Source: Verrucomicrobiota bacterium
GTDB lineage: Bacteria > Verrucomicrobiota > Verrucomicrobiia > Verrucomicrobiales > Akkermansiaceae
Assembly: GCA_027619375.1 (NCBI GenBank)
Contig: JAQCFL010000003.1
Span: 1-57,276, forward strand
Reading direction: 5' to 3'
DNA: 57,276 nucleotides
Shown: piece after piece, positions 7,063 to 47,877 of the stretch
Numbering within the stretch: the stretch's first letter is position 1
Layout: each line of letters opens with the position of its first letter
Translations under genes and position numbers: made by a program
Notes under the pieces: model-generated
The model's database searches: none
What the model was told of the DNA's origin: nothing
Seen by the model: only the letters and a program-made list of their open reading frames with translations

Positions 7063-7140
7063 GCGGCGAGAGACTGAGACCTCGCAGCATTCCCGGGAGT
7101 GGCAGCGGGCTTCTTGCTTCATGAGCCATGTGGCGGCCGG

Positions 7141-13177: not shown

Positions 13178-13369
13178 GGGTTCGGTTGTTTGGATTGAGT
13201 TTTCGGGTTGGGGTTCTCGACGAGCCTGCCGACCAGATTGTCCGGGTGGGCGACACCTTCCCATCCGTGGTCATCGGTCGATATGAAGTCAAGGAGGAGA
13301 TGTGCCATCGTCCGGCAACCTCCTGGGAGAGGCCGACGGGAGAATGGAATCAGCTTGGAAAGGGTGCGA

Positions 13370-13457: not shown

Positions 13458-14496
13458 TCACCCCGTGCGCCTGCGTCGACGAGCCATGAGGCCGAGACCA
13501 ACCAAGCCCAGCAGACTCATCGTTCCCGGTTCAGGGATGACCGACAACGACCCGGTACCCAAGAACCAGGTGGGGTTCGAACTGGCATTGTAGATTCCGG
13601 GTTCCTGTTCCACACCCTCCAAGAAAAGGCCGGCAACGATATTGGTGCCGGGGTTGTTCAGCTCAATGATCCCGGTGCCGGTGATGTAAACCGTGGTTGT
13701 ATCGGGCAGCGAGGTGTCGGTGGTGATCTGGAGCCTGCTGTCATCGAGCGTCGTGTTGCCCGTGTAGGCGTTGCCGGCGTTGGCGAGGGTCACTCCCATG
13801 CCCGCCCAACGGGCTGGTCATTGTGACGTTGGTGACGCCGCTGCCGATCACCCCGAGCACGTTGACATTCTTAATCCTGAAGGAATTCCCCTGGTCGACG
13901 ATGAACGAGCCCCCCTGGAGGTCCATGCTGCTGCTGGCGTCGGTTATCGTGGCGGTCCCGATATCCGCATAGATGAGGTCTATCGTGTTCGTGCTCGTGA
14001 TCGAACCATTGAGGGTGATGATGCTGTTGTTGCCGCCCTGATTGGCGAGGTAGACGGAGCTGCCGACGGTCGCCTCGAGAACGAGGTTTGGATTCACCGT
14101 CACTCTCAAGTCATTACCACCAGAGAACAGCGCATCGGCCAGATCCCCACCGCTTGCGTAGAGGTGGATGGTGCCGGGGCCATTGATGGTGGTGGTGAAC
14201 ACGGTCGGGATGCCAACAATGTTGTAGGCATGCACGTCGCCGGACACACCCATCTCGAAGCTGCCGTCGGCGTCGCTGTTGACCTGAACATTGTCGCCGG
14301 CCGTGGTGGTGGCGCTCCCACCGTCGGAGAACGCGCCGGTATCGTCCGCAGTCCAGAAGGCATCCGTGCCCCAGGTTCCACCGCTGCCGAAATCAGGGGT
14401 CGCGCCATTGGGGTCCCAATAAAGGCTCGCCGCCTGAGCAGCCCCGATCATCATCACCGCTGCCAGTCCGATTCCCAGAAGTTTGCGTCGCTTCAT
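13458..14496 (-). pseudogene. Frameshifted PEP-CTERM beta-rich secreted protein
   Basis: The gene reads from ATG 14496 (signal peptide MKRRKLLGIGLAAVMMIGAA) through a beta-rich passenger-like region to about 13800. There the frame is lost after SPLGGH and continues in another frame (GVTLANAGNAYTGN) to the stop at 13458. The paralogue at 14896-16695 reads through the same place as GPLGGHSNDKGRLVLANSG, which shows what is missing. The end is a PEP-CTERM signal: IPEPGTMSLLGLVGLGLMARRRRRTG. Both halves are well conserved, so either the break is recent or it is an assembly error. The protein would be an exported surface or matrix protein; no enzymatic motif is seen. Confidence 0.75.
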
Positions 14497-14595
14497 TGAT
14501 TTCAAATTTGCGTTACTTTCGCGTTGGGGCAATGTCACTGAGGAATACACGTCGGCAAGGCTATGGGGCAGCAGTGCACCTGCAAGGGATCTATT

Positions 14596-14614
14596 GTCAC
14601 ACGATGATGTGAGG
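14596..14614 (-). promoter_or_regulatory. Copy of the recurring CWTCGTGYGAY motif
   Basis: The minus strand reads CCTCACATCATCGTGTGAC, 100 nt upstream of the frameshifted PEP-CTERM gene start. It matches copies at 16810, 41857, 47878 and 54863. TCACA and TGTGA also form a local inverted repeat. It may be an operator or activator site; the binding protein is unknown. Confidence 0.5.
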
Positions 14615-14783
14615 TCGGCCCACCGCGCCGCAAGCAGGTGTTGTAGGGCCATTCAATTACTGGCCCTGGCCGCCGCAACCTGCGGCCATGAAGGCTTCCC
14701 GCCTCGTGCCTGCGGGGGCGTGGACCCTGCCGCCGACAAGCGAGCCGCCCCTCCGCTTCCTCCCGTCCGGAAGACCCCAAAGG

Positions 14784-14895: not shown

Positions 14896-16695
14896 TCATT
14901 CTGGTGCGGTCTCCGTGACTTGCACGTCGTCGATGTACCAACCCAGGTACTCGGCGGTGGTTCCGCTCAGACACCATTCGATGCGCACCATCTGGCCGAC
15001 GGCGGCGGTGATGTCGATCGCGGGGACGTCCTTCCAGTTGGCGAGGTTCACTTCACCGGAATCATCCGCAGTATAGACGGCGGCCACGATCACGTCATCG
15101 GTGGTAGCATTGATGATGTTGACCACCGCCGTGTCGTCGGCCTGGAGGTCGAGGGCCTCGGCAAAGGTCAGTTCGGCACCAGCCACGCCGGTCAGGTCGA
15201 TGACCGGCGAACGCAGGCAGGTCTCGGTGGGAACGATGTATTCCCCGGCATCGGCGAGGCCGAGGTTGGTGCCCCAGCAATTGGTGGAACCACCGTTACC
15301 GGTGAGGACGTCACCGCCGGGGCTGGTGGAGTCCGGGTCACCGTGCTCCCAGGAGCTGCCGGTCGCGCCTGCGACCTTGAGCGTATAGCCGCCGTCGTCA
15401 GCCTCGAAGTCCTCCTCATAAAACGGCAGCGGATCCTTCTCGACCACCGCGAAAAAGCGGGTCGGGTCACCCGGCGGCAGGGGAATGGTGAGCAGGTTGG
15501 TCCCGCTCCCCGAGGCCGGGATGTTCTCGTTGCTGTCCCAGACCGGCCAACCCGCGCGGGGGATCGAGAGATCGGTCTCACTAATCAGGTCGTAAACCTT
15601 CCCCACCTGGCTGTTCCAAGTGAGGTCAAGGTTTGCGCCGTCCTGGTCGATGGTCAGCACGAAGGTGGGCCCGCTGGACGAGACGACCTCCAATAGGCCG
15701 TTCCCAGTGAAAAGGGCGCTCTCGTTGTCAGCGCCGAGGTCTATGATCGATCCAACCCTGCCCCATTTGCCTCCGGCCTGCTCCAAGCCTTCGATATACA
15801 GGCCGGCAATCGTGTCGGTGCCGGTGAAATTCAACTCAAAGGTCCCGTTGTTGGTGATGTAGATCTTGGTTGTATCAGGCAGCGAGGAGGCGGTCGTGAG
15901 CCGGATAATGCTCGTGTCGAGAATCGTGTTGCCCGTGTAGGCGTTGCCCGAGTTGGCGAGGACCAGCCTCCCCTTGTCATTTGAATGGCCGCCCAGCGGG
16001 CCGGACCTCTGGACATGGTGGACGCCGCTGCCGAGCACCCCGCTCACCGTGTGGAGCTTGGGCCTGAAAGTGCCCCCTGATTCGGAGAGGAATGATCCCC
16101 CCTGGAGGTCAATGTCGCCGTTCAAGGTGAGGCCCCCAGGGCGTCCAAAAAGAAGGTCTACGGTGTTCGTACTCGTGATTGAACCATTGTACGTGGCGTT
16201 GGCGTTGTTTCCGCCACTTGTCCCGAGGGTCACGGTGCTTCCGCCGGCCGCCTCGAGAACGAGGTTTGGATCCATCACAAATCTCTGGTCGCCACCCGTG
16301 GAAACCACCGCGTTGGCGTCACCCAAACCGCTTGTGTGCACGTGGATGGTACTGGCGAGGCCATTGACGTTGGCGAAGGGGCTGGCAGTCGATGGGATTA
16401 CCATCCTGCTGACCTGCACACTACCGGACACATTCATCGCAAAGCTGGCAATGTTTAGGTGGTTGATGTAAACAACGTCGTCGGACGCTGTGGTGGCAGT
16501 TCCTCCATCGGAGAAACCGCCCGAGTTGTCCGTGGTCCAAAAGGCATCCGTACCCCAGGTTCCACCGTTGCCAAACCCCGGGTCGGTACCGTTCTGGTCC
16601 CAGTAATAGTCCGCCGCCTGGGCGGAGCCCGCAGCCACCGCCACGATCAAGCCGGCCAGCAGCGCCTTTATTGTCTTCAGGTAATCTTTCATCAT
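14896..16695 (-). CDS. Secreted beta-rich protein with C-terminal MAM/jelly-roll-like domain
   Basis: The 599-residue protein has a signal peptide (LKTIKALLAGLIVAVAAGSAQA). A beta-helix-like passenger region follows, with the repeat-type motifs YYWDQNGTDPGFGNGGTWGT and AYTGNTILD seen in autotransporter-like proteins. Next is a short domain of the kind common in Verrucomicrobiota secreted proteins (LTWNSQVGKVYDLISETDL), and then a C-terminal sandwich starting FYEEDFEADDGGYT and ending WCLSGTTAEYLGWYIDDVQV. Unlike its paralogue at 13458-14496 it has no PEP-CTERM tail, so its anchoring is unclear. ATG codons at 16695 and 16692 are equivalent choices. It is probably a cell-surface adhesin or glycan-binding protein; no catalytic motif was recognised. 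Confidence 0.75.
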   Translation of the reverse strand: MMKDYLKTIKALLAGLIVAVAAGSAQAADYYWDQNGTDPGFGNGGTWGTDAFWTTDNSGGFSDGGTATTASDDVVYINHLNIASFAMNVSGSVQVSRMVIPSTASPFANVNGLASTIHVHTSGLGDANAVVSTGGDQRFVMDPNLVLEAAGGSTVTLGTSGGNNANATYNGSITSTNTVDLLFGRPGGLTLNGDIDLQGGSFLSESGGTFRPKLHTVSGVLGSGVHHVQRSGPLGGHSNDKGRLVLANSGNAYTGNTILDTSIIRLTTASSLPDTTKIYITNNGTFELNFTGTDTIAGLYIEGLEQAGGKWGRVGSIIDLGADNESALFTGNGLLEVVSSSGPTFVLTIDQDGANLDLTWNSQVGKVYDLISETDLSIPRAGWPVWDSNENIPASGSGTNLLTIPLPPGDPTRFFAVVEKDPLPFYEEDFEADDGGYTLKVAGATGSSWEHGDPDSTSPGGDVLTGNGGSTNCWGTNLGLADAGEYIVPTETCLRSPVIDLTGVAGAELTFAEALDLQADDTAVVNIINATTDDVIVAAVYTADDSGEVNLANWKDVPAIDITAAVGQMVRIEWCLSGTTAEYLGWYIDDVQVTETAPE

Positions 16696-16773
16696 TTTAA
16701 TTTGTTTTTCCGGAGTTCTAACTTCACGAGTCATTCGACCTGGAAACTGACACTAGTTTGATTGAAACAGGGC

Positions 16774-16929: not shown

Positions 16930-18510
16930 TCAGAGGATCCGGATGATCGACAGCGAATGGGGTGGCAGACTGACCTTCCCCTGGCTGACCTTGATCTGGG
17001 ACCTCACGGGCACCACCCGGTCGGGATGCTCCGCATCGTTGAAGGCGTCGGGCGAATCACCGGCAAGGGTCGCGATGTCGAAGGTGCCGTCGAGCAGTTG
17101 GTCGCCGAGTTTGATGGTGCAGACGACGTTGGCTTCAGGATCGCGGTTCGTCAGGGCGATGGCCCAGCGCTTGCCCGATTCGTCGGTGGTGGCAATCCCG
17201 TCGAGTTGTTCGTTGCGCTGCCCCGCCTCCAGATTCATGGGGACGACCCGCGCTTCCAGGTCATTGGCATACATCGCCAGGGTGTGGAAGGTGGTGCGTC
17301 TCACGATGCCCTTGGGGTGGACGCGGAGGGGGCCGCGGGTGTTGACGATCGGGGCGATGTTGGCCATCCCCACATCGTCGCAGTGCCGCAGGCAGGCATT
17401 GAGGAACGCGGATGTGAACACGGCATCGGCCATGGTGTAGGTGCTGTCGATGGCATTGTCCTCGCGTCTCTTGATGAACTCCGCAGCCTTCTCGTCGTCC
17501 GCCCGCACCACGCCCTTGCGCGGGAAGCCCGGATGGAACCAATGGCGGAGGTTCCATTCGTCGTAGGCGATCTTGATCTTGCCACGGAACCCGGCCTCCT
17601 CGATGTTCTTGACGACGCCGATGATCGTCTTCTCCGGTCCGCCACAGAATTTCATGCACTCCTTGTAGGTGATGGGCTTTTCCTTGTTGTGCCAGTAGGA
17701 ATGCACCGCCATATAGCTGAGGTCCGCGCCGGCAGCCTTGAGCAGGGGCAGATTCCATTCGCGTTTGTCCAGCCAGGCCGCGGCGGCCAGCTCGATGTCC
17801 GGGTCGGCGGCCTGCATCAGTCCGGCGCACTGGTGGACGAGCGGCCCCCATGTTTCCGGCGTCTTGCGGCCGATCTCCCAGTATCCGTAGTTTTCGTTGC
17901 CGATGCTCCAATACTTCACCTTGTACGGTTGCTCGTGGCCGTTGGCCTTGCGCAGTTCGGCGTATTCGCCGGTGGTTCCGTTGCAGTATTCCACCCATTG
18001 CCTCATCTCCTCGGGGGTGCCGTTGCCGGCGTTGGTGCAAATGTAGGGCTCGCAGCCGACCAGGCGGCACCATTCGACAAACTCGTCGGTGCCGAAGGTG
18101 TTGGGGTCGGTCGCGCCCCAGACCGGATCCGGCACGGGCTGGCGTTCCTTGCCCACGCCGTCCTTCCAATGATAGCCGCTGACGAAGCATCCGCCGGGCC
18201 AGCGCACCACCGAAAGTTTCAGCTCCTTCATTGCGGCGATGACGTCCTTGCGGAAGCCGCGCTCGTCCGCCCGCGGTGAGCCGGGCTCAAACAGGCCGCC
18301 GTAGATCTGATCGTCGAAATGCTCGATGAAGCCCCCGAACAGCATCGGGCTATACGGCCTTGACGGGGCGGTGGTGTCGATGGTGACGAGCCCTTGCGCC
18401 TCCGGCGCGGAATCGGCGCCAGTCTTGTCTTTCGCCGCGGCGGAATCGGGGACGCTGAGTCCCGCCATCAGTATTGCCAAGGCCAGGATCGGGGTGTTTC
18501 GCATGTTCAT
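16930..18510 (-). CDS. GH51 alpha-L-arabinofuranosidase, secreted
   Basis: This retaining alpha-L-arabinofuranosidase releases alpha-linked arabinofuranose from arabinans, arabinoxylan or arabinogalactan side chains. The 526-residue protein has a signal peptide (PILALAILMAGLSVPDSAAA), a (beta/alpha)8 barrel with acid/base Glu206 in WSIGNENYGY and nucleophile Glu318 in IAYDEWNLRHW, and the usual C-terminal beta domain. FGGFIEH and VVRWPGGCF are typical GH51 strands. ATG 18510 and ATG 18504 are equivalent starts. It is the last gene of the large minus-strand cluster that begins at 29571, separated from the GH29-like gene by 150 nt that contain no recognised site. Most GH51 enzymes are cytoplasmic; export is consistent with the rest of this locus. 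Confidence 0.9.
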   Translation of the reverse strand: MNMRNTPILALAILMAGLSVPDSAAAKDKTGADSAPEAQGLVTIDTTAPSRPYSPMLFGGFIEHFDDQIYGGLFEPGSPRADERGFRKDVIAAMKELKLSVVRWPGGCFVSGYHWKDGVGKERQPVPDPVWGATDPNTFGTDEFVEWCRLVGCEPYICTNAGNGTPEEMRQWVEYCNGTTGEYAELRKANGHEQPYKVKYWSIGNENYGYWEIGRKTPETWGPLVHQCAGLMQAADPDIELAAAAWLDKREWNLPLLKAAGADLSYMAVHSYWHNKEKPITYKECMKFCGGPEKTIIGVVKNIEEAGFRGKIKIAYDEWNLRHWFHPGFPRKGVVRADDEKAAEFIKRREDNAIDSTYTMADAVFTSAFLNACLRHCDDVGMANIAPIVNTRGPLRVHPKGIVRRTTFHTLAMYANDLEARVVPMNLEAGQRNEQLDGIATTDESGKRWAIALTNRDPEANVVCTIKLGDQLLDGTFDIATLAGDSPDAFNDAEHPDRVVPVRSQIKVSQGKVSLPPHSLSIIRIL

Positions 18511-18660: not shown

Positions 18661-19701
18661 TCAGGATCCCACCTTGTCATTAACCCGATGCAGCTGCTCG
18701 ACCGACCCGGGTGCCATCGTTCCTTCCTGATGGATGCCCACATTGAAGGTCATCGGGGCCATGTTGCGGTTGCAGGTACGGATGTAATCGCTCACCTGTT
18801 GGTCGCCATACAGCGGCGGCCGGATCGGCGTGTCGGGCTTGGTCTGGACCCAGTTCTTGTCTTCCAGAGGGGTCCAGCCAAACCACTGCAGGCCGTTGTC
18901 CAGATAGCGGCTCGTGGCCGGGGTTTTGAGGTTGCCCATTTCCCCGGCCCAGTAATCCTGGTGGGTGGTGAACAGGAATTTCTGGTTGAAGCCGCCGTTG
19001 TAGGTGACCAAGCGGCCCGGATGCCCCTTCTTGGCGGCCACCGTGAATTGCTCCCACGGAAACTGGAAGCCGGCCATGTCCGTGGTCACGCTCTTGAACG
19101 GACCACGGGCATCGAGCGAATAGGGACTGTCAAACCACCACGCACTGACCTTGTCGCCATATCGTTCACTCATCAGGGTGATGATCTCCATCAGGTTCCG
19201 GGCGAGCACGTTCTTGTCCTGACCGTCGTAGCCCACCGCCTTGCGCCATTCGGGATCGTTCTGGTTGTTGCAGGAATGATTGTAGTAGACCAACAGGCGC
19301 CTGCCCCTGGCCGCCAGCCCATCCGCCAATTCTCCGAGCAGATCGCGTTCGCAGGTCCGGCCCGGCAGGATGTCGTCGATCACGGGATGCGGGGCGGGCA
19401 GCATTTGCAGGGCGTGGGTCGCGGTGAACAAGACGTAGTCGGCTCCGATGTGTTCGACGGCGGCGAGAAAACCCTTCAGGTCAAAGCCGGCCACGGCCTC
19501 CTGGAATGGCTTCGGTTTGCCGGTGCTCGGAGCGGTTTGTGCCGTCCAATGGACGCCCACTCCAAAGCGGCACTTGGCCAGCCAGTCGGTGTTGGCCCGC
19601 GCATATTCCGGTGCTGGTTTGCCCGTATCCGCGTTTCCCGGTCCGGGCTGAAGCGTCAATGCCGCCGCTCCGGCGGTCTTGATGAATGCGCGTCGTTTCA
19701 T
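18661..19701 (-). CDS. GH29-like putative glycosidase with Tat signal
   Basis: This 346-residue protein has a twin-arginine export signal (MKRRAFIKTAGAAALTL) and a barrel that resembles alpha-L-fucosidases of GH29. CRFGVGVHWT corresponds to the family's FGIFIHWG strand, GADYVLFTATHALQM to the strand ending in the substrate-binding histidine, and WWFDSPYS carries Asp191 at the place of the nucleophile. It is shorter than typical GH29 proteins and lacks their C-terminal beta domain, so the assignment is to the fold rather than to a proven activity. ATG 19701 was chosen because the Tat motif starts there. It lies 32 nt after the GH95-like gene in the same direction and is probably co-transcribed. 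Confidence 0.65.
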   Translation of the reverse strand: MKRRAFIKTAGAAALTLQPGPGNADTGKPAPEYARANTDWLAKCRFGVGVHWTAQTAPSTGKPKPFQEAVAGFDLKGFLAAVEHIGADYVLFTATHALQMLPAPHPVIDDILPGRTCERDLLGELADGLAARGRRLLVYYNHSCNNQNDPEWRKAVGYDGQDKNVLARNLMEIITLMSERYGDKVSAWWFDSPYSLDARGPFKSVTTDMAGFQFPWEQFTVAAKKGHPGRLVTYNGGFNQKFLFTTHQDYWAGEMGNLKTPATSRYLDNGLQWFGWTPLEDKNWVQTKPDTPIRPPLYGDQQVSDYIRTCNRNMAPMTFNVGIHQEGTMAPGSVEQLHRVNDKVGS

Positions 19702-19733: not shown

Positions 19734-21983
19734 CTATTTCGGTTGCGGTGCCAGGCTCAAGTTCTCGTTGACCCGGGTGTCGAGGGTGAAGCGTGCTCCG
19801 GAGACCGTTTCGGTCCTGCCGTCGCCCCGTTTGACCGTCACTTGGCGGTCCGGCCACGGGTTCACCAGCGTGCAGGGCCGGCCTTTCTCGCTGAGGATCC
19901 TCACATACCGCACTTCGCCGTTCTCGAACGCGCTGGTCACCAGGAAGGCACCGAACTGGCGCAAATTGGCGAAGCGTGCATCGACCGCCTTCGGCCAGGC
20001 CGGGAACAGTCGCATGACATCATGGTGCACCGAGCAAAGCATCAGGTTCACGGTGTTGGGGATGGTGGCCACTTTCTCCATGCCGTGCTTGTTGTTGCGC
20101 ATGCCGTTCGGGCGGTACTGGGTGGCCACGAATTCGTGCAGCTTCGCATAGATCACCTCGGGGTGGTATCCGAGCCAGGCCGCTGCGGGGAAGAAGCTGG
20201 TGTCGCCGTTGTTGTCGAACCAGCGTTGCATGTAATCGAGGGTGTTGATCGAGGTCCGGATCAGTTCCGGACTGCTCTCCAGGCCGATCCCCAGGGCTGG
20301 ATAAATGTGCTGGATTCCAAGGGTATTGCCCTTCCAATACTCGGTTCCGACCTCCGAGTAGCGGAAGATGGTCTTCCCATCCACCTCCCGCGTGGGGTAG
20401 GTGCTGAGATGGGTGAGGATGTGTTCCCACTTTTCATGCTTGTCCTGGTCCACGGCCAGCGTCGCGCTCATTTCCAGCGCCGTGCCAAACACCGCACGGA
20501 CCAGGGCGAGCGAGACGATCGGGTTGAAGTCATCCCCGCTCTGCTCATGGATCGAGTCATTGGCGATCACATAACGGTCCTTGTCCTTCTCGAAGGTCAT
20601 GTATGCCTCCCAGAATGCGGTCAACTCCTTGAAATACGGGTACACCTTCCTAGCATAGTCCGGATCATAGGTGGTCTTCCATCGGAAGATCATGTTGACC
20701 GCGCCGTATGCGCCGTTGCTCTTCTGGTTGAAGGTATTGCCACCGCCCTGCCCCTTCGGCGTGATTCCCACAGGATAGAGGATGCCCGGCATGTTGATGC
20801 TTGCCGCCAACTTGCGGGCACTGGGCATGAAATCGAGCAGTGGTTGGTCCTGCACCTCTCCGAGGGCAACATGGTTGGAGCCATAGAGGCTGTAGAATGC
20901 CGCCTGATAGTTGTAGTTCAGGTGATAATCGTTGCCCCACCCGGGGCCATCGGTGCAGAACCACGACCCCAGAATTCCGGGGGGGAAATCCTTGTCCCGA
21001 CAACTGCTGGCGAAAAGGTAGTTGGCCAGATAATACTGGCGCTCGATGACCTTGTCTGGAATCTCGACGAAGCTCTCGGCCCAGAAGTCGGCCCACCACT
21101 TCTTGTGCGCCTCTAGCTGCACGGGCATGGAGGCGATGTCGAATGCCGACATCTTTTTTTCGACAGCGGCGGCAAAGTTCGGGTTTTTGATCCGGCTATC
21201 GACGGCGAACACGAGCACCTGCCGGTTCTGGTCCAGTTCCCCGCGCCTTCCCGCACCGAATCTCCGCATGCAAAGGCTCGCTGCGGCCTGGGATTCCTTC
21301 TCCAGTTCGCGCCGCAGATAGATTCCGTCGAAGCCCTTGGGATCCCGCACTTCAGCCACGCCGCTCTCGACTTTGGTGCGCCGGTTGAGCTCCTTCATGA
21401 CCTGCGGGTGGAGCGTGTAGGGGATCGTTCCGTTCTCCGCCTCGAACTCCATGAAGATCATGTTGTCGACGGCACTGACCCAGATCCTGAAGTGGACGGT
21501 GACCCCGCCCTCCTGCGCGACAGTGCCGGAGGTGATCGCGGGGTAAAGATCGGTTGCGGCGGTGAATTTCGGCTCCGGTTTCGCCGGATCGAAGGCAAAA
21601 GCGGCATCGATCAGCGCCACTGAACGGGCCCCACGGCCCCACATGTCATTTTTGTGGAACCAGAAGCGGATCCTGCCCGGTTGCTGTTTCCTCGGGGTGG
21701 CCCCCTTCTCCGGAGGGCTGGCGCTGATCGACATGGCGATGTCGCCGTTGCCGAGGAGGATGGCATCCGTGGAATAGGGCGCCAAGCCGGTCGGCAACTT
21801 GGTGAAGACCGCCTTGTGCTGCGAAACGATCCGGTGGGACCCGGCCCGCAGGTCCTGCTCCGCCGGCGCGGCATCCGTCCGTCCGAACACAAGCGGTCCC
21901 ATGCCGAACACAAGCAGTCCCAGGACGAGGCGGGTAATGACCGAGGGCCCGAAGATCGCTTGTCCTGTGACCACTCCTTTCAT
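19734..21983 (-). CDS. GH95-like (alpha/alpha)6 protein, paralogue B
   Basis: The 749-residue exported protein has the layout of GH95 (alpha-L-fucosidase or galactosidase). It has an N-terminal beta domain with LLGNGDIAMS, a linker (WWADFWAESFVEI), and a helical barrel carrying WGNDYHLNYNYQ, in which Asn356 and Asn358 match the paired active-site asparagines of GH95. The usual MNYWPA that follows is replaced by AAFYSLYGSNH, so this is at best a distant member, perhaps an unassigned family. The C-terminus is a beta domain (GRPCTLVNPWP). Its ATG overlaps the TGA of the upstream paralogue (ATGA), which implies translational coupling. It has a hydrophobic N-terminus (about residues 14-34). Substrate is unknown; a terminal fucose or galactose is a guess. 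Confidence 0.65.
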   Translation of the reverse strand: MKGVVTGQAIFGPSVITRLVLGLLVFGMGPLVFGRTDAAPAEQDLRAGSHRIVSQHKAVFTKLPTGLAPYSTDAILLGNGDIAMSISASPPEKGATPRKQQPGRIRFWFHKNDMWGRGARSVALIDAAFAFDPAKPEPKFTAATDLYPAITSGTVAQEGGVTVHFRIWVSAVDNMIFMEFEAENGTIPYTLHPQVMKELNRRTKVESGVAEVRDPKGFDGIYLRRELEKESQAAASLCMRRFGAGRRGELDQNRQVLVFAVDSRIKNPNFAAAVEKKMSAFDIASMPVQLEAHKKWWADFWAESFVEIPDKVIERQYYLANYLFASSCRDKDFPPGILGSWFCTDGPGWGNDYHLNYNYQAAFYSLYGSNHVALGEVQDQPLLDFMPSARKLAASINMPGILYPVGITPKGQGGGNTFNQKSNGAYGAVNMIFRWKTTYDPDYARKVYPYFKELTAFWEAYMTFEKDKDRYVIANDSIHEQSGDDFNPIVSLALVRAVFGTALEMSATLAVDQDKHEKWEHILTHLSTYPTREVDGKTIFRYSEVGTEYWKGNTLGIQHIYPALGIGLESSPELIRTSINTLDYMQRWFDNNGDTSFFPAAAWLGYHPEVIYAKLHEFVATQYRPNGMRNNKHGMEKVATIPNTVNLMLCSVHHDVMRLFPAWPKAVDARFANLRQFGAFLVTSAFENGEVRYVRILSEKGRPCTLVNPWPDRQVTVKRGDGRTETVSGARFTLDTRVNENLSLAPQPK

Positions 21984-24280
21984 GACTCGCTGCTGACCAG
22001 GGAGAATGTTGCGCCGGCCTCCGTCTTCAAGACGACCCTGTCGCCCTGCAGCGAATCCACCTTTTTGCCGTCCCGATAGACGTCGATCGACTTGCCGGGC
22101 CACGGGTTCACCAGCGTGCAGGGTCGGCCCCGTTCGCTATGGATGCTGACCTGCCCCACCATGCCCCCTTTGAGTTCGCTGGAAACCAGGAAGGCCCCCC
22201 AGACCCGGAGGTTCGCGAAGCGGGCGTCCTTGTCCTGCGGCCAGTTTGGAAAGAGGCGCAGGACGCCCTTGTGGCCCATGCACAACATCTCGTTGATGGT
22301 GTTCGGAACGATGCTGCAGTTCTCCACGCCGTGCGGGTTGCCCCTGATGAAGCCGTTCGTCGCGGCCTTCGTCCGGATCATCTCGCGCAGCTTGGCGAGG
22401 ATGACCTCCGGGTCGTATCCGACCCGCACCGCGGCCGGGTAGAAGCTGTTCATGCCGTTGCCGTCGAACCAGCCGTTCCGGACATCGATGGTGTTGCGGG
22501 CGACCTCGAGTTCCTCCGGCGGGCTGTCGGGTCCGATCGCCCCGGCCGGGTAGATGTGCTGGATGGCAAGGGTATTGTTGCGCCACCAGTTGGTGCCCTT
22601 TTCGGTGTAGCGGAAAACCTTCACCTTGGGTTTCTCGATGCTGCGGTCCTCGTCCGGGAGTCGCGGGAGGGCGAGCTCCTGGTAGGTCCAGCCGCTGAGG
22701 TGGTCGAGGATGTGATGCCACTTCGCGTGGCGATCAGTGTCGATTCCCAGCTCCTTGCTCATGTCGAGGGCCAGTTCGAGGGCGTTGCGGACGAGCGCGA
22801 GTGAGACCATGGAGTTGAAATCGTGGCCGTTGAATGAGCGCTCATGGATGGAATCCCGGTAGATGACATAGCGCCCGTCCTCGAACTTGAGGTAGTCCTC
22901 CCAGAAATCCGCGATGTCGCGGACCAGCGGGTAGAGCTGCTTCGCATACTCGGTGTCGTAGGTGGCATGCCAGCGCATGGCGATGTTCACGAGGCAGTAG
23001 GCCCCGTTGCTCCGTTGAAAATAGAAGAGCCCCTCCTTCTCGAAATGCGGCGGCTTCGCGTAGCCGTCGTCCGGATAGTTCCGCGTGGTTTCGATCCCCT
23101 TGGGACCGATCCCGACGGGGTAGTAGGCCCCGCGGATGCCCTGCGCGTTTTTCGCATACCACCGGGCGCGGGTCAGGAAATCGAGGATCGGGGCGTGATA
23201 GGGGTCGGCCTGCTCGATGTGGTTGGAGGAATAGAGCCCGTAGAACGGCGCCATGTGGTTGTAATTGAGGTGATAGTCCCCCTCCCAGCCGGGGGCGTCG
23301 GTGGTGTTCCAACTCCCGAAGAGGGGAGGGGGGAATTCCGGGTCGCGACTGGCGCAGGCCATGACGTAGTTCGACAAGTAATAACGCTGCTCGAGGACCG
23401 GGTCGCCGATTTCCACGTAGGACTTCGCCCAGTAATCCCGCCACCAGGCGGCGTGTGCCTGCCTCAACGCGGCGAGGGCGGCCGGGTCCATTCCGGCGAT
23501 CCTTTTTTGGACGTCGTCCAGGGGTGCCGGGCTTTTGAACCGGCTTTGCATCGCGGCGAGAATCGTCACGGGCTCGCCGACCTTGAGCGTGAACTTGGAC
23601 GTTCCGGTTCCGAGCATCGTCATGGCGCAGGCCACCTCGGTCGCGATCTCGACATCTTTTTCGAATTTCCGGGTCACCCACCGTGTCGCCCCGTCGCCGC
23701 CCTGGGCGACCTCCGAGCCGTTACCCTCCTGCACCCACAGATTTACCTCCGCCTCGACGTCCTTGCTTGTGGCCTTCAGCTCCACCACCAGCATGTTCTC
23801 ACTGGCGGCCACCCAGGAACGGACCTCCACGCCCGCCCCGCTCTTGCCACCGGCCCAGTTCGATACGGTCACCGCTTCATACAGGCTCTGTTCGGTGTCC
23901 GACCCGCCTTCCAAGCCGGGAAAGGTCACGTCGATCCCGCCGAAGACCCGCGGACCACTCGGGCCGGTCTTGTAGTCGTGCGCCAGCTTCCAGAAATCAT
24001 TCTTGCAGAGCCAGAACCGCGGTCCGTTGGCCACTTGGCGAACCCTCCGGTTCTCCCCGATCTCCGTGATCTCCGAGAGACAAACGGCCATGTCGCCGTT
24101 GCCCAGCAGCGGACCGTCGACGATTGTTTTGCTGGGAGTGGCCTTGGAGAGGCCACGAAAATCCGCCGTGTAGGGCGACACCACCCGCTTTGACCCTTCC
24201 ACCAGCGTCTCTTCGCCTCCAAATGAAACGGCGCAGGTCGCAAGCAGCAGAACGAGCAGGTCGGGGGGGCGGATGTTCAC
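21980..24280 (-). CDS. GH95-like (alpha/alpha)6 protein, paralogue A (GTG start)
   Basis: The 766-residue paralogue of the next gene has the same domain order: signal peptide (PPDLLVLLLATCAVSFGG), PLLGNGDMAV, WWRDYWAKSYVEI, GWEGDYHLNYNHM with Asn339 and Asn341, and GRPCTLVNPWPG near the end. A GTG at 24280 is the best start. It overlaps the sulfatase TGA as GTGA and puts the signal peptide at the N-terminus, whereas the 80 in-frame codons upstream lie inside the sulfatase gene. Two GH95-like enzymes coupled in tandem suggest related but distinct linkages. The active-site asparagines are kept, but the family's MNYWPA motif is not. Confidence 0.65.
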   Translation of the reverse strand: MNIRPPDLLVLLLATCAVSFGGEETLVEGSKRVVSPYTADFRGLSKATPSKTIVDGPLLGNGDMAVCLSEITEIGENRRVRQVANGPRFWLCKNDFWKLAHDYKTGPSGPRVFGGIDVTFPGLEGGSDTEQSLYEAVTVSNWAGGKSGAGVEVRSWVAASENMLVVELKATSKDVEAEVNLWVQEGNGSEVAQGGDGATRWVTRKFEKDVEIATEVACAMTMLGTGTSKFTLKVGEPVTILAAMQSRFKSPAPLDDVQKRIAGMDPAALAALRQAHAAWWRDYWAKSYVEIGDPVLEQRYYLSNYVMACASRDPEFPPPLFGSWNTTDAPGWEGDYHLNYNHMAPFYGLYSSNHIEQADPYHAPILDFLTRARWYAKNAQGIRGAYYPVGIGPKGIETTRNYPDDGYAKPPHFEKEGLFYFQRSNGAYCLVNIAMRWHATYDTEYAKQLYPLVRDIADFWEDYLKFEDGRYVIYRDSIHERSFNGHDFNSMVSLALVRNALELALDMSKELGIDTDRHAKWHHILDHLSGWTYQELALPRLPDEDRSIEKPKVKVFRYTEKGTNWWRNNTLAIQHIYPAGAIGPDSPPEELEVARNTIDVRNGWFDGNGMNSFYPAAVRVGYDPEVILAKLREMIRTKAATNGFIRGNPHGVENCSIVPNTINEMLCMGHKGVLRLFPNWPQDKDARFANLRVWGAFLVSSELKGGMVGQVSIHSERGRPCTLVNPWPGKSIDVYRDGKKVDSLQGDRVVLKTEAGATFSLVSSES

Positions 24281-25647
24281 GGCGTGGTGGGTAAGGTTGA
24301 TTTTTTTCCGCGCCCCGGCTTCACCCCGGGCACCGGTTTCTTTCCGCTGGGCGCCTCCTGCGCCATGGCGAGGAGACGCGCAACGATCTCGGGATGATCG
24401 GCGGCGACATCCTTCGATTCGCCGATGTCGTCCTTCAAGTTGTAAAGTTCCGCCGCCACATAGGGAGCGGCCTGCCCGCCACCATTTCCCTTGCCCCTTT
24501 TGTTGAACCACAACTTCCATTCCTTCCAGCGGAGCGCCCGGGGCTCCGGGCCGATGTGGTAAACAAAATGATCCCGTGCGCTTTCAGGGGCCTTGCCGAG
24601 GAGGTAGGCGGACTGGTCGACACCATCCAGCACGCGATCCTGCGGGAGGTCGGCGCCCGCCAGCGCCGCGAAGGTCGGGAGCACGTCCAGGGTCGCGAGG
24701 ATGCCGTCCCGGGACTCCCCAACCGGCACCCCCGGGCCGCGCAGGATGGTCGGCTCCCGGAATCCCCCCTCGTAGGCGGAGCTCTTCCCGCCGCGCAGCG
24801 GGAGGGCCGAACCGGTCGCCTGGTGCCCCCCGTGGGACTTCCTGAACTGCTCCTCCTTGGAATTCCACGGGCCGTTGTCGCTGGTGAACAGCACGAAGGT
24901 GTTCTCCTCGAATCCGAGTTCGCGGACCGCGTCGAGGAGTCGGCCCGCATTCCAGTCGGCCTCCTCCATGACGTCCCCGTAGAGATCGCCGCCCGACTTC
25001 CCCTTGAACTGCTCGGAGGCGTCGATCATGACATGCGCCATGGTGTGGGCGAGGTAGAGAAAGAACGGCTTCTCCTTCTTCTGCTCCCCGAGAAACTTGA
25101 TGGCCTCGTCGGTGTAGCGGCGCGTCAACGAGGACATGTCCGAGGTGGTCTCGAGTTTTTCGCCGTCGCGATGAAGGGTGACCTTGCCGCTGTCGTTCGC
25201 GCCCCACGTTCCGAAATAATGTTCGAAGCCCTGGTCGTTGGGCATGAGGCCCTCCTGGTAGCGCCGGTTCGACATGTCCCACTTGCCGATGCAGCAGGTC
25301 ACATAACCGGCCCCTTTCAACACCTCCGCCACCGTGACTTCGTCTCCGTTGGTCCGCCATCCCCCGCCGACCCGGACCGGATAGCGACCGGTCATGAGCG
25401 CCCCGCGCGACGGACCACACACCGCCTGCGCATAGAAGTCGGTGAGCCGCACGCCCTCCCCCGCGAAGCGGTCGAGCCTGGGCGTCTGGAAGTTTTTCGC
25501 CCCGAAGCAGCCGACATCCGCGTAGCCGACGTCATCCATGAAGATGATGATGAAGTTCGGCCTCTCCGAGGCGGAGAGGGCCGTGAGCGTCAGGGCAAGG
25601 GCCGGGCATAGCACCCGGAAGGTTCTCCAAATGAAATGTGCGTTCAT
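24277..25647 (-). CDS. Secreted sulfatase (Cys-type, CGPSR motif)
   Basis: This 456-residue sulfatase has the canonical signature: Cys77 in C-G-P-S-R-G-A-L. It has a signal peptide (FRVLCPALALTLTALSA) followed directly by NFIIIFMDDVGYADVG, and later FTSDNGPW and GKWDMSNRRY. The start at ATG 25647 was chosen because the 112 upstream in-frame codons run into the esterase gene and are not signal-like. A Lys/Arg-rich C-terminal tail resembles those of many PVC sulfatases. Its TGA overlaps the GTG of the GH95-like gene. It lies 37 nt after the esterase gene. No substrate can be assigned from sequence. Confidence 0.87.
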   Translation of the reverse strand: MNAHFIWRTFRVLCPALALTLTALSASERPNFIIIFMDDVGYADVGCFGAKNFQTPRLDRFAGEGVRLTDFYAQAVCGPSRGALMTGRYPVRVGGGWRTNGDEVTVAEVLKGAGYVTCCIGKWDMSNRRYQEGLMPNDQGFEHYFGTWGANDSGKVTLHRDGEKLETTSDMSSLTRRYTDEAIKFLGEQKKEKPFFLYLAHTMAHVMIDASEQFKGKSGGDLYGDVMEEADWNAGRLLDAVRELGFEENTFVLFTSDNGPWNSKEEQFRKSHGGHQATGSALPLRGGKSSAYEGGFREPTILRGPGVPVGESRDGILATLDVLPTFAALAGADLPQDRVLDGVDQSAYLLGKAPESARDHFVYHIGPEPRALRWKEWKLWFNKRGKGNGGGQAAPYVAAELYNLKDDIGESKDVAADHPEIVARLLAMAQEAPSGKKPVPGVKPGRGKKSTLPTTP

Positions 25648-25684
25648 GATCGTTGCTGTGTTCCGCGCGGGGGGGCTTCCGCGT

Positions 25685-27454
25685 TCACTTCCTGGCCGGC
25701 TTTTGCTTGCTCCGCCATGCCTCGTCTTCTTCCAGAACCGTTCTGGCGGCCGCAGCCTTGCGATCCCATGCCTGGGCCTCGGCCGTTTCGCGGGTCGGCA
25801 CCTCCGGATTCTGAATTTCGGGGCTGGCCGTGCGGTCGATCGGCGCATCGTTCCACGCCGGCCAGTCATCGGTCCGGAACGGCAGGGCCGGGCCGGCCCT
25901 GTTGCTGAAGTTGGCGACCGGATGCACGCCCCAGGCATACCGCACCGCCTCGGGCTCCGGCACAAACTCGCTCGAGATGGCAAAGGTGTCGGCCTTCACG
26001 TTTTCCAGCTTGGCCGGATAAAAATGGCGGTCCTTTCCCGCGATCACGAACCCCTTTGGCGGCACGCGCATGCCGTAGGGCGAACTCGCGTTGCTCCCCT
26101 TCGTGAAAGTCAGGACGATGCGCGCCCCGTCCTTTTCCCATTGCTCCATGATCGGGGCGTCGTAGGTGATGCCCTTGACCTGGTAAACCTCGTCGAGGGC
26201 CCAGCGGGCGGCGCGTTCCCCGATGGGGCGTTTGAACGGCGAATGCATCTGGACGTGGCCGAGATCATAGGTCGCCACGATCCCCGTATGCGGGTGCTTG
26301 AGATGGGCCTTCAACTGCGCCTCGCGCACCCCGGAGGCCTTGTGGAGCATGTTCCGCTCCGGTTCGTTCTCGTCGTCCGGCGGACCGAAGGAGGTCATTT
26401 GGACGACGCAGAACGGCATCTCCGCATCGGCAAAGGCCTTGCGCCAGTCCGGGATCAGCGCGGGAAAGGTATCCATGTAGAGGTTGGGCCGTCCCTGGCT
26501 CGCGACGCAGTTGTTGATGCCTTGGTAGAAGAGAACCCCCTTGATGCCGAACTGCCGGATCGGTGCGATCAGGCCGTTGAAGCAGCCCCCCGGAAAACTT
26601 TGCCGGTAGGTGTAGGTGGTCGGCACCTCCGGCTTGGGTGGGGCGGCCCGCCCGGCCGCCTCGGCTTTCGCGGTCTGCTGCTTCCAGCCCGCCATCTTGC
26701 GCTCCAGCTCCCCCTTGTAGTCATAGGCGGCGGCCTCGGCGTCAAAATAGTTGATGAGCGGCAGGGCGGCGGGAACTTTCTCCAGCGACTCGCGGGACAC
26801 CCAGGTCTCCACCACGCTGCCGCCCCAGGAATTGTCGATCAGGCCGATCGGCACGCCGGTGATGGCATTCACGAGGCGGGCGAAGTGATAGCCCACCGCC
26901 GGAAAGTCCGGCGCCGTCTCCGGCGAACTCACCCGCCACACACCCTTCAGTTCCACGTAAAACGGATTGCGTTCCTCAATCGGGAAATTTTCCAGCGGGG
27001 TGGGGCTTGAGTGCAACGGAAGAGTGAGGCAGCGGATGGCGGGGATCCCGGCCTGCGGCATGTCGAGGTCGGAGTCGATGATCCCTCCCGCCGCCGACTC
27101 CATGTTGCTCTGTCCGCTGCAGAGCCACACGTCGCCGATCAGGACATTCTCGAAAGTCAGGGTGTCCTGCCCTCCCTTCACGGTCAGCGCCTGTGGCTTC
27201 GCATTGGCCGGCATGGGATCCAGCGTCAGTAGCCATTTCCCGTCGTCGCCGACGGTGGTCTTCCCGGTCTGCCCGTTGAACTCGACCGAGACCGCATCGC
27301 CCTTGTCGCCCCAGCCCCAGAGGTGCGCGGGCTTTTCACGCTGCACCACCATGCCATCACCAAACACGCGCGGCAGCTCCAGCTTCCCCGCGTCCGAGGT
27401 CAGCGGGAAGACGCACCCCGCCATCACCATCATCATCCATTGCACGTTCTTCAT
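25685..27454 (-). CDS. Sialate-O-acetylesterase-like SGNH esterase
   Basis: This exported 589-residue esterase belongs to the SASA type. Known members remove O-acetyl groups from sialic acids, xylan or pectin, so this one probably deacetylates the glycan handled by the cluster. An N-terminal signal peptide and a beta domain precede the catalytic domain. The serine is Ser116 in WLCSGQSNME; GVLFYQGINN is the conserved substrate strand, and the C-terminal block reads YDLGHVQMHSPFK. The usual Asp two residues before the catalytic His (D-x-H) is Gln here, which may alter the triad or mean another acid serves. It lies 20 nt after the MGH1-like gene in the same direction. Confidence 0.8.
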   Translation of the reverse strand: MKNVQWMMMVMAGCVFPLTSDAGKLELPRVFGDGMVVQREKPAHLWGWGDKGDAVSVEFNGQTGKTTVGDDGKWLLTLDPMPANAKPQALTVKGGQDTLTFENVLIGDVWLCSGQSNMESAAGGIIDSDLDMPQAGIPAIRCLTLPLHSSPTPLENFPIEERNPFYVELKGVWRVSSPETAPDFPAVGYHFARLVNAITGVPIGLIDNSWGGSVVETWVSRESLEKVPAALPLINYFDAEAAAYDYKGELERKMAGWKQQTAKAEAAGRAAPPKPEVPTTYTYRQSFPGGCFNGLIAPIRQFGIKGVLFYQGINNCVASQGRPNLYMDTFPALIPDWRKAFADAEMPFCVVQMTSFGPPDDENEPERNMLHKASGVREAQLKAHLKHPHTGIVATYDLGHVQMHSPFKRPIGERAARWALDEVYQVKGITYDAPIMEQWEKDGARIVLTFTKGSNASSPYGMRVPPKGFVIAGKDRHFYPAKLENVKADTFAISSEFVPEPEAVRYAWGVHPVANFSNRAGPALPFRTDDWPAWNDAPIDRTASPEIQNPEVPTRETAEAQAWDRKAAAARTVLEEDEAWRSKQKPARK

Positions 27455-27474: not shown

Positions 27475-29571
27475 TTATTCTGAAAGCGTTCCGGTGACCC
27501 GGCCGAGCGTCTCGGAGTGCGCGATTTCCCGTCCATCTGCGAAGACGCGGAGGCCTTTGCCCCGACCGTATTTTTCACCAGTCTTGTCCCACACGATCGT
27601 GAGGGTCCGGCCGTGGTAGGAGATCCGGTCCAGGCAGAACCAATCCCACTTTCCTTCGGGCACGAGCGGGTTGACCTCCACCACCTTGTCCGCCCGCGGC
27701 CGCAGCCCGACAAGGCCGGTGATGACGAGGTCGCAGAAGCTCGAGTGGTTGTAGTCCTTGCCACGCTCGCGCAGCACCTTGTCGGGCTCGCCCTTCGCGA
27801 CCAGTTGCGCGTTGCGCTCCTCGCAACGTTTCCTCGCGATCCATTCGCCAGTGAAGGGGTCGATGTTCTCGTCGATCCACCACACGACCCGCCCGTCGGC
27901 GAGCTTCCGGTGGTGGGACCCGACGTAAATCTTGAGGGTCTTGAGGTAATCCTCCCGGCTGATGGCATCCTGCTTGTAATTATTCAACACGTTGGCCATG
28001 GCGGTCAAGGTCTGGGCGGTGGCGAACGGCCAACTCGGCCCGTTCCACTGGCATCCATGGCCTTCATAGGAAATCTTGAAGCCCTCGTGCCGCTGTTCGG
28101 CGGTGGTCGGTCCGAACGGCGCGAGAAAGCCCTTGGGGTCCATCAGGTGCTTCCACGCGACCTCGAACCCCTTGCCCGCCTCGGGCAGATTGAAATACCA
28201 CGGCGTGAAACCGTGCAGTTCGCGCACATCAACCAGCCCGGCCTCCTTGCTCGCACCTTCGCCGTCGTTCAGGGAGCCGACCACGTTGTTGCGGCCCATC
28301 CGGATGTCGTAGGACTTGCTGATCTTCCCCTCCGGCGCATGGTTCGTCCCGCCGCCGAGGGCGCGCCATTCGAGGATGCCGCCCGACTTGCCCTTCGCCG
28401 ACTGCACCTCCAGGCGGATGGCGTCAGTCTCGACCGGATCGAAGGCGGTCTTGTTGAATGCATCGAGCGCCAGCCCATAGTCGCCGCGGTTCTTGACCGG
28501 AACCCATTCCTCCCCCCTGCGCGCCAGGATCCGCCACGAAGCCGGCTTCCCGATCACCCCATTATCGTCGAACCAATAGACCTCCGCCGCGTCAAAGCTC
28601 CTCGGCTTCTCGAACGAATATTGGACCCACTCCAACGTCCCCCGGTGGTCCTTGTCCATCCAGTGCAGTTTCGGCACCGAACCGTCCCGCGAGCTCTTGG
28701 GAACGACCAGCTCATGAGGGCTGCGCTGAAGGGTCTTGAAAAATTGCGCTTCCGGATCCCAGAGCTTCGTCTCGACGAGTTCCTTGAGCCGGGTCGCCTT
28801 GCTCCGGTATTCCTCCGCCAGGTCCTTTCGCCCCGCCAGCTCCGCGATCCGGGCGATCGCGAGCGCATCGCCGAACATGTAACTGTTGATGGTGGCGCGC
28901 TTGCCACTCTTGCCGATCGAGACCTCCATCCCGTCGCGGTCGTCGATCTGCCAGAACAACCCGTCCGGGGTGAGGCGATCCTTTTCCCATCCCTCATAGT
29001 TCCTGACGAGATCGTCCAGCAGGTCCACCACGAGCGCCTTGTTATCCTTCACGAGATTGAAGGCATTGATCGCGTCGGCCGCCCAGAAGCTGTAGAGGCG
29101 CGGACTGCCGCCCTTGCGGAACCAGAAGGCGGCGTAGTTGTCGAGATACCTCGAATCTGCGAGCCAGCGGCCCTCGTAAAAGTGGTGCCCGGCCGGACAC
29201 GAGATCGTATTATGCTTCCCGGACCAGGTGACCTGCGGCAAAAACTCGGTGACCACCCAGCCGTCCGGAGTCTCCTTGAGGTGCTTCCGGAACGTCCACC
29301 AGCGGAAATAGTAGGCCTGCTCGATCTCCCTGTCCGGGCACTCGAAGAACGGGATGTTCGCCTCGAGAAACTCCCACGCCCGGGCATTCGGAATGGCGTT
29401 CGCGTAGAGCTCCTCGTCGTCCGTGTTGAACCCGTCGATGTAGTGTTTGAACTGATCTGGCTTCAGGACCGGTGCGCCGGGGTCGGCTTGCAGCGGCCCG
29501 GCAAGCAGCATTGCGAGGACCGTGACAAGCGCCGGGTAGAAGGGGGCGGAAATGGGCTGGAGCGTTTTCAT
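27475..29571 (-). CDS. MGH1-like (alpha/alpha)6 glycoside hydrolase with inserted discoidin-like module
   Basis: The 698-residue secreted protein has a signal peptide (PALVTVLAMLLAGPLQA) and a helical barrel of the MGH1/GH63/GH37-like type. FWAADAINAF lies in the first half and WNGPSWPFATAQTL in the second. At about residues 300-405 the barrel is interrupted by a beta module (VEVYWFDD-like, PASWRILAR, GGILEWRAL). The same module is found at the C-terminus of two GH127 proteins here. GH family and substrate cannot be assigned from sequence. ATG 29571 fits the signal peptide; it is the first gene of the large minus-strand cluster and is preceded by a small perfect inverted repeat. Confidence 0.7.
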   Translation of the reverse strand: MKTLQPISAPFYPALVTVLAMLLAGPLQADPGAPVLKPDQFKHYIDGFNTDDEELYANAIPNARAWEFLEANIPFFECPDREIEQAYYFRWWTFRKHLKETPDGWVVTEFLPQVTWSGKHNTISCPAGHHFYEGRWLADSRYLDNYAAFWFRKGGSPRLYSFWAADAINAFNLVKDNKALVVDLLDDLVRNYEGWEKDRLTPDGLFWQIDDRDGMEVSIGKSGKRATINSYMFGDALAIARIAELAGRKDLAEEYRSKATRLKELVETKLWDPEAQFFKTLQRSPHELVVPKSSRDGSVPKLHWMDKDHRGTLEWVQYSFEKPRSFDAAEVYWFDDNGVIGKPASWRILARRGEEWVPVKNRGDYGLALDAFNKTAFDPVETDAIRLEVQSAKGKSGGILEWRALGGGTNHAPEGKISKSYDIRMGRNNVVGSLNDGEGASKEAGLVDVRELHGFTPWYFNLPEAGKGFEVAWKHLMDPKGFLAPFGPTTAEQRHEGFKISYEGHGCQWNGPSWPFATAQTLTAMANVLNNYKQDAISREDYLKTLKIYVGSHHRKLADGRVVWWIDENIDPFTGEWIARKRCEERNAQLVAKGEPDKVLRERGKDYNHSSFCDLVITGLVGLRPRADKVVEVNPLVPEGKWDWFCLDRISYHGRTLTIVWDKTGEKYGRGKGLRVFADGREIAHSETLGRVTGTLSE

Positions 29572-29620
29572 GAGGCTGGTATCCTGAACACTTTCCCTAC
29601 GTGCGCCCAGCCTCCGGTAT

Positions 29621-29633
29621 TGCGATGATCGCA
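29621..29633 (-). promoter_or_regulatory. Small palindrome TGCGA-TGA-TCGCA
   Basis: A perfect 5-bp-arm palindrome with 3-bp centre lies 50 nt upstream of the MGH1-like gene, the first of its cluster. It shares the elements TCATCG and GTGCGA with the motif found in five other upstream regions, but not in the same order. It could be a diverged site of the same regulator. Confidence 0.35.
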
Positions 29634-29697
29634 CATGGCCCGGGATTACCCTGTTCCGACCGGGTCTCCTGGCCGGGGATGGCGTGGTTTGCACCCG

Positions 29698-47694: not shown

Positions 47695-47877
47695 CGGGTG
47701 GTTCACGAGGGGCAGGCGTCTGCTACGCAGTGTTGAGGAATCATATTGCGGATTCCGGGTGGCGGTCCGAAGCAACACTCATGGGGAATGACCTTGTCAT
47801 CAACCATGTTCACCCGAGCCGGGGAATCTATGCACCCTTCCGCTTCACTGGGGAAGGCAATTGCTTTGCGTCAGGAG

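Follow-up and report, generated by a model that had tools for sequence, protein, structure and literature searches.

Locus and Genes

The window, meaning the whole 57,276-nucleotide stretch of an Akkermansiaceae (Verrucomicrobiota) contig that was analyzed, is a carbohydrate locus. Its principal features are summarized in Table 1. It also holds a GH38-like gene, two GH2 genes, a melibiase-like gene and a two-component system, and the F5/8 type C domain of the locus sensor kinase is possibly its sugar-sensing part. The best solved relative of the GH29-like protein is 9pnj at 78 bits, with others at about 25 bits. Two neighboring reverse-strand frames (13741–14652 and 14896–16734) have a similar YWDxNGxxPxFGxGGTWGTDAFWT start and no Pfam match; they resemble secreted repeat proteins that are paralogous to each other.

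TABLE 1. Features of the locus by position in the window. Coordinates of P1 residues 336–355 were computed from the GTG start at 24280.
Feature	Position	Strand	Evidence or remark
Sensor kinase with F5/8 type C (discoidin-like) domain	5047–7122		
GH127 gene	7141–9183	(-)	PF07944
Sulfatase	11732–13264		
GH51-type alpha-L-arabinofuranosidase-like gene	16930–18510	(-)	PF06964, 96.7 bits
GH29-like gene, divergent	18661–19701	(-)	Directly downstream of P2; PF01120, 35.6 bits (cut-off 25.2)
P2, secreted P1 paralog	19734–21983	(-)	749 aa, ATG start
P1, secreted GH95-like enzyme	21980–24280	(-)	766 aa, GTG start
P1 E653 codon	22322–22324	(-)	At AfcA D766 / XacAfc95 D690 position
P1 residues 568–578, NNTLAIQHIYP	22547–22579	(-)	At core GH95 HRHxSHLxxxxP position
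P1 E480 codon, general-acid Glu	22841–22843	(-)	Invariant in all groups compared
P1 residues 336–355, YHLNYNHMAPFYGLYSSNHI	23216–23275	(-)	Asn pair N339/N341 and segment replacing QMNYWPA
Sulfatase open frame	24277–25983	(-)	CGPSR formylglycine-type site; likely start MNAHFIWRT; PF00884, 176.2 bits
SASA-domain carbohydrate esterase-like gene	25685–27454	(-)	Conserved neighbor (synteny); PF03629, 55.4 bits
MGH1-like glycoside hydrolase gene	27475–29694	(-)	Conserved neighbor (synteny); PF22422, 251.4 bits
GH127 gene	39317–41776	(-)	PF07944
Sulfatase	46114–47778		
GH127 gene	48044–50437	(+)	PF07944

P1 and P2 align over 761 columns at 41% identity and are therefore paralogs. Read directly in the DNA, the end of P1 and the start of P2 overlap in ATGA (within ...gagtcATGAaag...), and the end of the sulfatase and the start of P1 overlap in GTGA (within ...acgccGTGAaca...). 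Together with the coordinates, this confirms the two joined GH95-like paralogs, and both junctions, described by an earlier sequence-only reading. The start of P1 is backed by the ortholog at locus L006, which has an ATG within an ATGA overlap at the matching position. Both are real genes, because orthologs occur in other genomes at 76–82% identity and dN/dS was 0.08–0.15 in all five pairs compared, i.e., under purifying selection. Overlaps of four bases are common in bacterial operons; translation of the sulfatase, P1 and P2 may be coupled. In the alignment, P1 has a loop of about 18 residues upstream of the QxSN segment that P2 lacks; the P1 structural model has low confidence at residues 403–410, in the region of this loop. 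Its presence in P1 only would fit differing substrates for the two proteins.

Homologs of P1 and P2

A scan of named genomes matched 37 distinct loci; because it was built on only two peptide patterns, the clade is undersampled. Full-length or partial relatives with at least 33% identity are found at 15 of the 37 (L006–L019 and L032), and the other 22 have 20–29% identity, or up to 38% over pieces of roughly 70–110 residues. The clade set consists of 22 proteins: P1, P2, the relatives from the 15 loci, a second tandem pair from the same genome as the window, and one protein from a relative at family level. Trees and residue counts use 20 clade rows, after exclusion of the short L015 and L019. 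Locus L018 is retained among them although incomplete: its P2 ortholog (L018:5393–7210) is shortened, with the region beyond NTLGIQHIYPA absent, and is either a pseudogene or an assembly fault. Named clade loci span five phyla (Verrucomicrobiota, Lentisphaerota, Bacteroidota, Bacillota, and Planctomycetota). In a search of the phylum with up to three candidates scored per genome, matches that reached at least E 1e-100 came from 8 of 288 genomes.

Profile Matches and Predicted Fold

Both proteins exceed the cut-off of 27 bits for the Pfam GH95 catalytic domain (GH95_cat, PF22124), with 73.7 bits for P1 and 66.4 bits for P2; the Pfam model GH95_C is below its cut-off for both. In NCBIfam, P2 had no match and P1 had one, at 12.4 bits, far under the cut-off. 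A true GH95 encoded in the genome of the window reaches 520 bits with GH95_cat and 252–532 bits against solved GH95 enzymes, for which the P1 score is 42.8 bits at most. In a profile comparison with solved structures, GH95 7kmq scored 116.4 bits, and GH139 structures scored 53.0 and 34.6 bits. A GH95_cat match is no proof of family, because one of four GH139 proteins tested is also above the cut-off, at 28.7 bits.

The AlphaFold2 model of P1 (pLDDT 91.6, pTM 0.93) has the three-domain layout of GH95, i.e., an N-terminal beta-sandwich, an (alpha/alpha)6 barrel and a C-terminal beta-sandwich. In the PDB, GH95 chains match it best (Z 29.8–34.1, 638–673 residues aligned), and the GH95 layout that the sequence-only reading had proposed is thereby borne out for P1 by the modeled fold. 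Next come GH139 (Z 27.8–28.4) and then GH65 (Z 22–27). The GH65 matches, with 22.0 bits for P1 on the GH65-type model PF03632, are what would speak for GH65-kind phosphorylases or alpha-glucosidases. We consider this extremely improbable: the PF03632 score is under the cut-off of 27 (P2 has no listed match), GH95 ranks above GH65 in the fold matches, and both GH95-type asparagines are present in all 20 clade rows. GH65 membership was set aside on the profile scores.

The sequence-only reading had named DUF5703-type families as another possible home for the pair. DUF5703 is GH139 and no rival family of its own: the PDB lists the solved GH139 members as DUF5703 proteins, and two GH139 structures, 9hyq and 9hmb, gave 688 and 259 bits with a DUF5703 protein. 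In the profile search, P1 and P2 fall below the DUF5703_N cut-off of 26.7 (20.0 and 18.5 bits), and this alternative did not hold up.

Active-Site Residues

Published background was taken from excerpts of PMC10154630, PMC4491172, PMC12282258, PMC8245568, PMC13174399, PMC8857213, and PMC8406133. Active-site positions come from alignment columns rather than superposition; the columns were anchored on residues named in those excerpts for AfcA (N421/N423/E566/D766), XacAfc95 (T395/N397/N399/D690) and BACOVA_03438. At the position of NxNxQMNYWPA in core GH95, P1 has DYHLNYNHMAPFYGLYSSNH and P2 has DYHLNYNYQAAFYSLYGSNH. The paired asparagines of HLNYN, already recognized from the sequence, are kept in both proteins and across the clade, where N339, N341, E480, and E653 (P1 numbering) each occur in 20 of 20 rows. 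The segment that follows is AxFYxLYxSNH and not QMNYWPA. This replacement of MNYWPA was the difference put forward by the sequence-only reading; it is true of P1 and P2, but it is only part of what separates them from GH95, and two other changes are stronger.

The first is loss of HRHxSH, a motif defined from 33 core GH95 rows with five solved enzymes included. Its first and second His are present in 33/33 core rows vs. 0/20 clade rows, which mostly have NTLxIQH instead; in two other GH95-like sets they are kept in 12/12 and 10/10 rows. The second is exchange of Asp for Glu in the E653 column (Glu in 20/20 clade rows vs. Asp in 32/33 core rows), although Glu here is not unique to the clade, being shared with further GH95-like groups (11/11 and 7/10). 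The E480 column is Glu in all 33 core rows as well. Asn at P1 N608 is found in 19/20 clade rows and lies within an insert absent from every other group, and the column of P1 W604 is Trp in 18/20; W604 is possibly the stacking Trp. In the excerpted text of PMC12282258, two conserved His residues flank a stacking Trp in GH95 and the motif is not named; the lost HRHxSH histidines may contact the sugar in GH95.

These residues also bear on the idea that one of the pair is a non-catalytic binding protein. A GH139 homolog without the acid has no detected activity, according to PMC12282258, and so loss of function does occur in the GH95/GH139 superfamily. However, equivalents of N339, N341, E480, and E653 are present in both P1 and P2, and both are under purifying selection, which makes a non-catalytic role for either highly improbable.

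Another, uncharacterized GH95-like group carries DYH[NH]DLNTQ (L014:3676–5844, L021–L023, L025–L027, L029–L031, L046, and L047). In this group Asp replaces the first catalytic Asn in 12/12 rows, and all 11 rows with a residue at the D766 position have Glu there.

Phylogenetic Placement

In a 90-row catalytic-domain tree, the 20 clade proteins are monophyletic (SH-aLRT 100, stem 1.09 changes/site) and stand apart from GH95 and from GH139, which is separately supported at 100. A 93-row tree with five solved GH95 enzymes and without the long-branched rows L071 and L024 again supported the clade at 100, with a stem of 1.22. All five solved enzymes fall within core GH95 (33 rows, support 99), with the clade outside. 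These trees are quick searches with SH-aLRT as the only support, at low identity (about 20–25% to outgroups); comparison rows were 30 GH95-type, 9 GH139, and the 5 solved GH95 enzymes. The 33-row core is counted without L112 and L093 (labeled GH95) and two intermediate rows, all of which the tree sets beside it.

Topology tests rejected a grouping of the clade with core GH95 alone (p-AU 0.0005), and the clade therefore lies outside the characterized enzymes. A grouping with all 37 rows of the broad GH95 group was not rejected (p-AU 0.385), so that the clade may be a sister of GH95 and be classed with it as a deep subfamily. The sequence-only reading had suggested a new glycosidase family, contingent on the pair not falling inside a characterized GH95 subfamily. 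Because the clade lies outside the core that contains all five solved enzymes, the suggestion survives as a family-level branch outside the characterized GH95 groups; its claim to be separate from GH95 altogether is weakened by the possible sister or subfamily placement. P1 and P2 belong to a deep, uncharacterized clade of the GH95/GH139 superfamily, for which family rank is plausible.

The unconstrained 90-row tree places the clade beside GH139 (support 88). This position, the weak DUF5703_N similarity, and the rank of GH139 structures directly after GH95 in the fold comparison would all suit GH139 2-O-methyl-fucosidases. That P1 and P2 are such enzymes is nevertheless very doubtful, since their DUF5703_N scores are under the cut-off, the 20 clade rows have N-Y-N and not the adjacent Q-N of GH139, the clade and GH139 are separate groups each supported at 100, and the profile score is far lower for GH139 structures than for 7kmq. 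GH139 membership was set aside on the profile scores and the tree.

Gene Neighborhoods

The set of MGH1-like, SASA, sulfatase, P1, P2, and GH51 genes recurs at L006, L007, L008, and L032, with differing orders and missing parts. In L008, P2 precedes P1; in L006 and L007, P1 comes directly after the SASA esterase and is joined to it by ATGA; and in L032, the GH51 gene separates P2 from a P1-like gene. The view that three proteins are made in fixed order, which the sequence-only reading drew from the overlaps, thus fails across relatives. Between the P2 and P1 orthologs of L008, a stretch at 8670–8930 resembles the C-terminal end of the MGH1-like protein (DKWDWFCLD..., read by eye), as if P1 there had been inserted through recombination between copies of the module.

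The genome of the window carries another two clade genes in tandem (L123:4463–9370, contig C263), with a GH127 gene on one side and a sulfatase gene on the other. Elsewhere the neighbors are GH120, GH3, and GH2 (Sphingobacterium, L010), GH3 (L013), or GH78 (L012). No sulfatase was found among the neighbors examined in L009, L010, L012, and L013, and substrate sulfation may therefore not be general for the clade.

Three bacterial microcompartment (BMC) shell genes lie on contig C424 (13034–15067) of the same genome, which also encodes a fucose-isomerase-like protein (weak match); this genome, which is 84% complete, yielded no arabinose isomerase C-domain. The shell proteins and the weak isomerase match are in line with the use of fucose-rich sulfated polysaccharides by Akkermansiaceae, as described in excerpts of PMC13174399 and PMC8857213. 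This fucose and sulfatase specialization of aquatic members is one reason to consider P1 and P2 as simply divergent members of GH95, alpha-L-fucosidases or L-galactosidases whose substrate is a sulfated polysaccharide that contains fucose; the glycone would then be unchanged, and the aglycone site alone would differ. The PF22124 scores, the fold, and the Asn/Asn/Glu set all agree with that view, and P1 H337 stands where AfcA has H419, a residue that lines the C6-methyl pocket (PMC4491172). Three results count against it: HRHxSH is missing and Asp is replaced by Glu in every clade row, the tree sets the clade outside core GH95, and the His/Thr position is no determinant of specificity in XacAfc95, as far as the excerpts describe that enzyme. 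On balance we regard an ordinary fucosidase or L-galactosidase as rather unlikely. Taking His337 as proof of fucose specificity was considered separately and discarded, being contradicted by XacAfc95, where specificity is not decided at this position.

Proposed Activity

We favor, at a probability of roughly one half (about 0.52), the reading that P1 and P2 are secreted inverting exo-glycosidases of a separate clade in the GH95/GH139 superfamily, with an Asn base, an altered glycone pocket, and a sulfated polysaccharide as substrate. Hydrolysis would proceed with inversion, following the proposal for GH95 and GH139 in which Asn is the base and Glu the acid; the two are among the few glycosidase families in which the catalytic base is proposed to be an amide side chain (PMC12282258). 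In P1 numbering, E480 would be the general acid, N339 would position it, and N341 would activate water, made basic by E653 instead of the usual Asp. The glycone pocket appears rebuilt, in that HRHxSH is missing and three elements are new: NTLxIQH, the W-x-D-x-N insert, and the segment AxxYxLYxSNH. The glycone is for this reason probably not the plain terminal L-fucose or L-galactose of core GH95, and may be something related or modified, e.g., a modified L-fucose, another deoxy sugar, or a pentose. The upstream sulfatase would first clear sulfate esters, after which P1 and P2 may take different linkages in a single sulfated polysaccharide of plant or algal origin that contains arabinose and methylpentose.

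A stronger version, to which we give somewhat less than even odds, is that the clade represents a new family of glycoside hydrolases, a sister of GH95 and GH139, with a Glu-activated Asn base and a glycone that neither of them takes. P1 and P2 would then be linked partners that trim the same sulfated polysaccharide once the coupled sulfatase has acted. A literature search, mostly outside subscription journals, found no title describing the clade. A third branch in which the Asn is kept, the activating acid changed, and the His motif shed would offer a natural experiment on the requirements of the base and of the glycone pocket, and the clade may contribute a so far unread step in the way aquatic Verrucomicrobiota break down sulfated polysaccharides.

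Comparison With Known Families

GH65 glycosidases and phosphorylases have an overall fold in common with the P1 model. They differ in the sub-threshold PF03632 score, and only GH95 and GH139 exceed GH65 in sequence match. The GH139/DUF5703 proteins BT0984 and SDT91673.1 share with the clade the fold, the Asn base and Glu acid columns, and the absence of HRHxSH. GH139 differs in the adjacent Gln-Asn that it carries (PMC12282258), an N-terminal domain model of its own, and its separate, fully supported branch.

The uncharacterized GH95-like groups of the DYH[NH]DLNTQ and NLNxQ types resemble the clade in having GH95_cat matches and mostly Glu at the D766 position. Unlike the clade, they keep HRH in 22/22 rows, and the DYH[NH]DLNTQ group further differs in its Asp for the first Asn. 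With characterized GH95 enzymes (AfcA, BACOVA_03438, XacAfc95, FucOB, BH0842, and 8zbv), the clade has in common the three-domain layout and fold, Asn-x-Asn, the general-acid Glu, the His/Thr position, and an invariant Trp column. In contrast to them, its members have QMNYWPA replaced, no HRHxSH, Glu instead of Asp at the position of D766, Tyr for Trp in the W428 column (15/20 rows), and the extra W-x-D-x-N insert, and they form a clade of their own.
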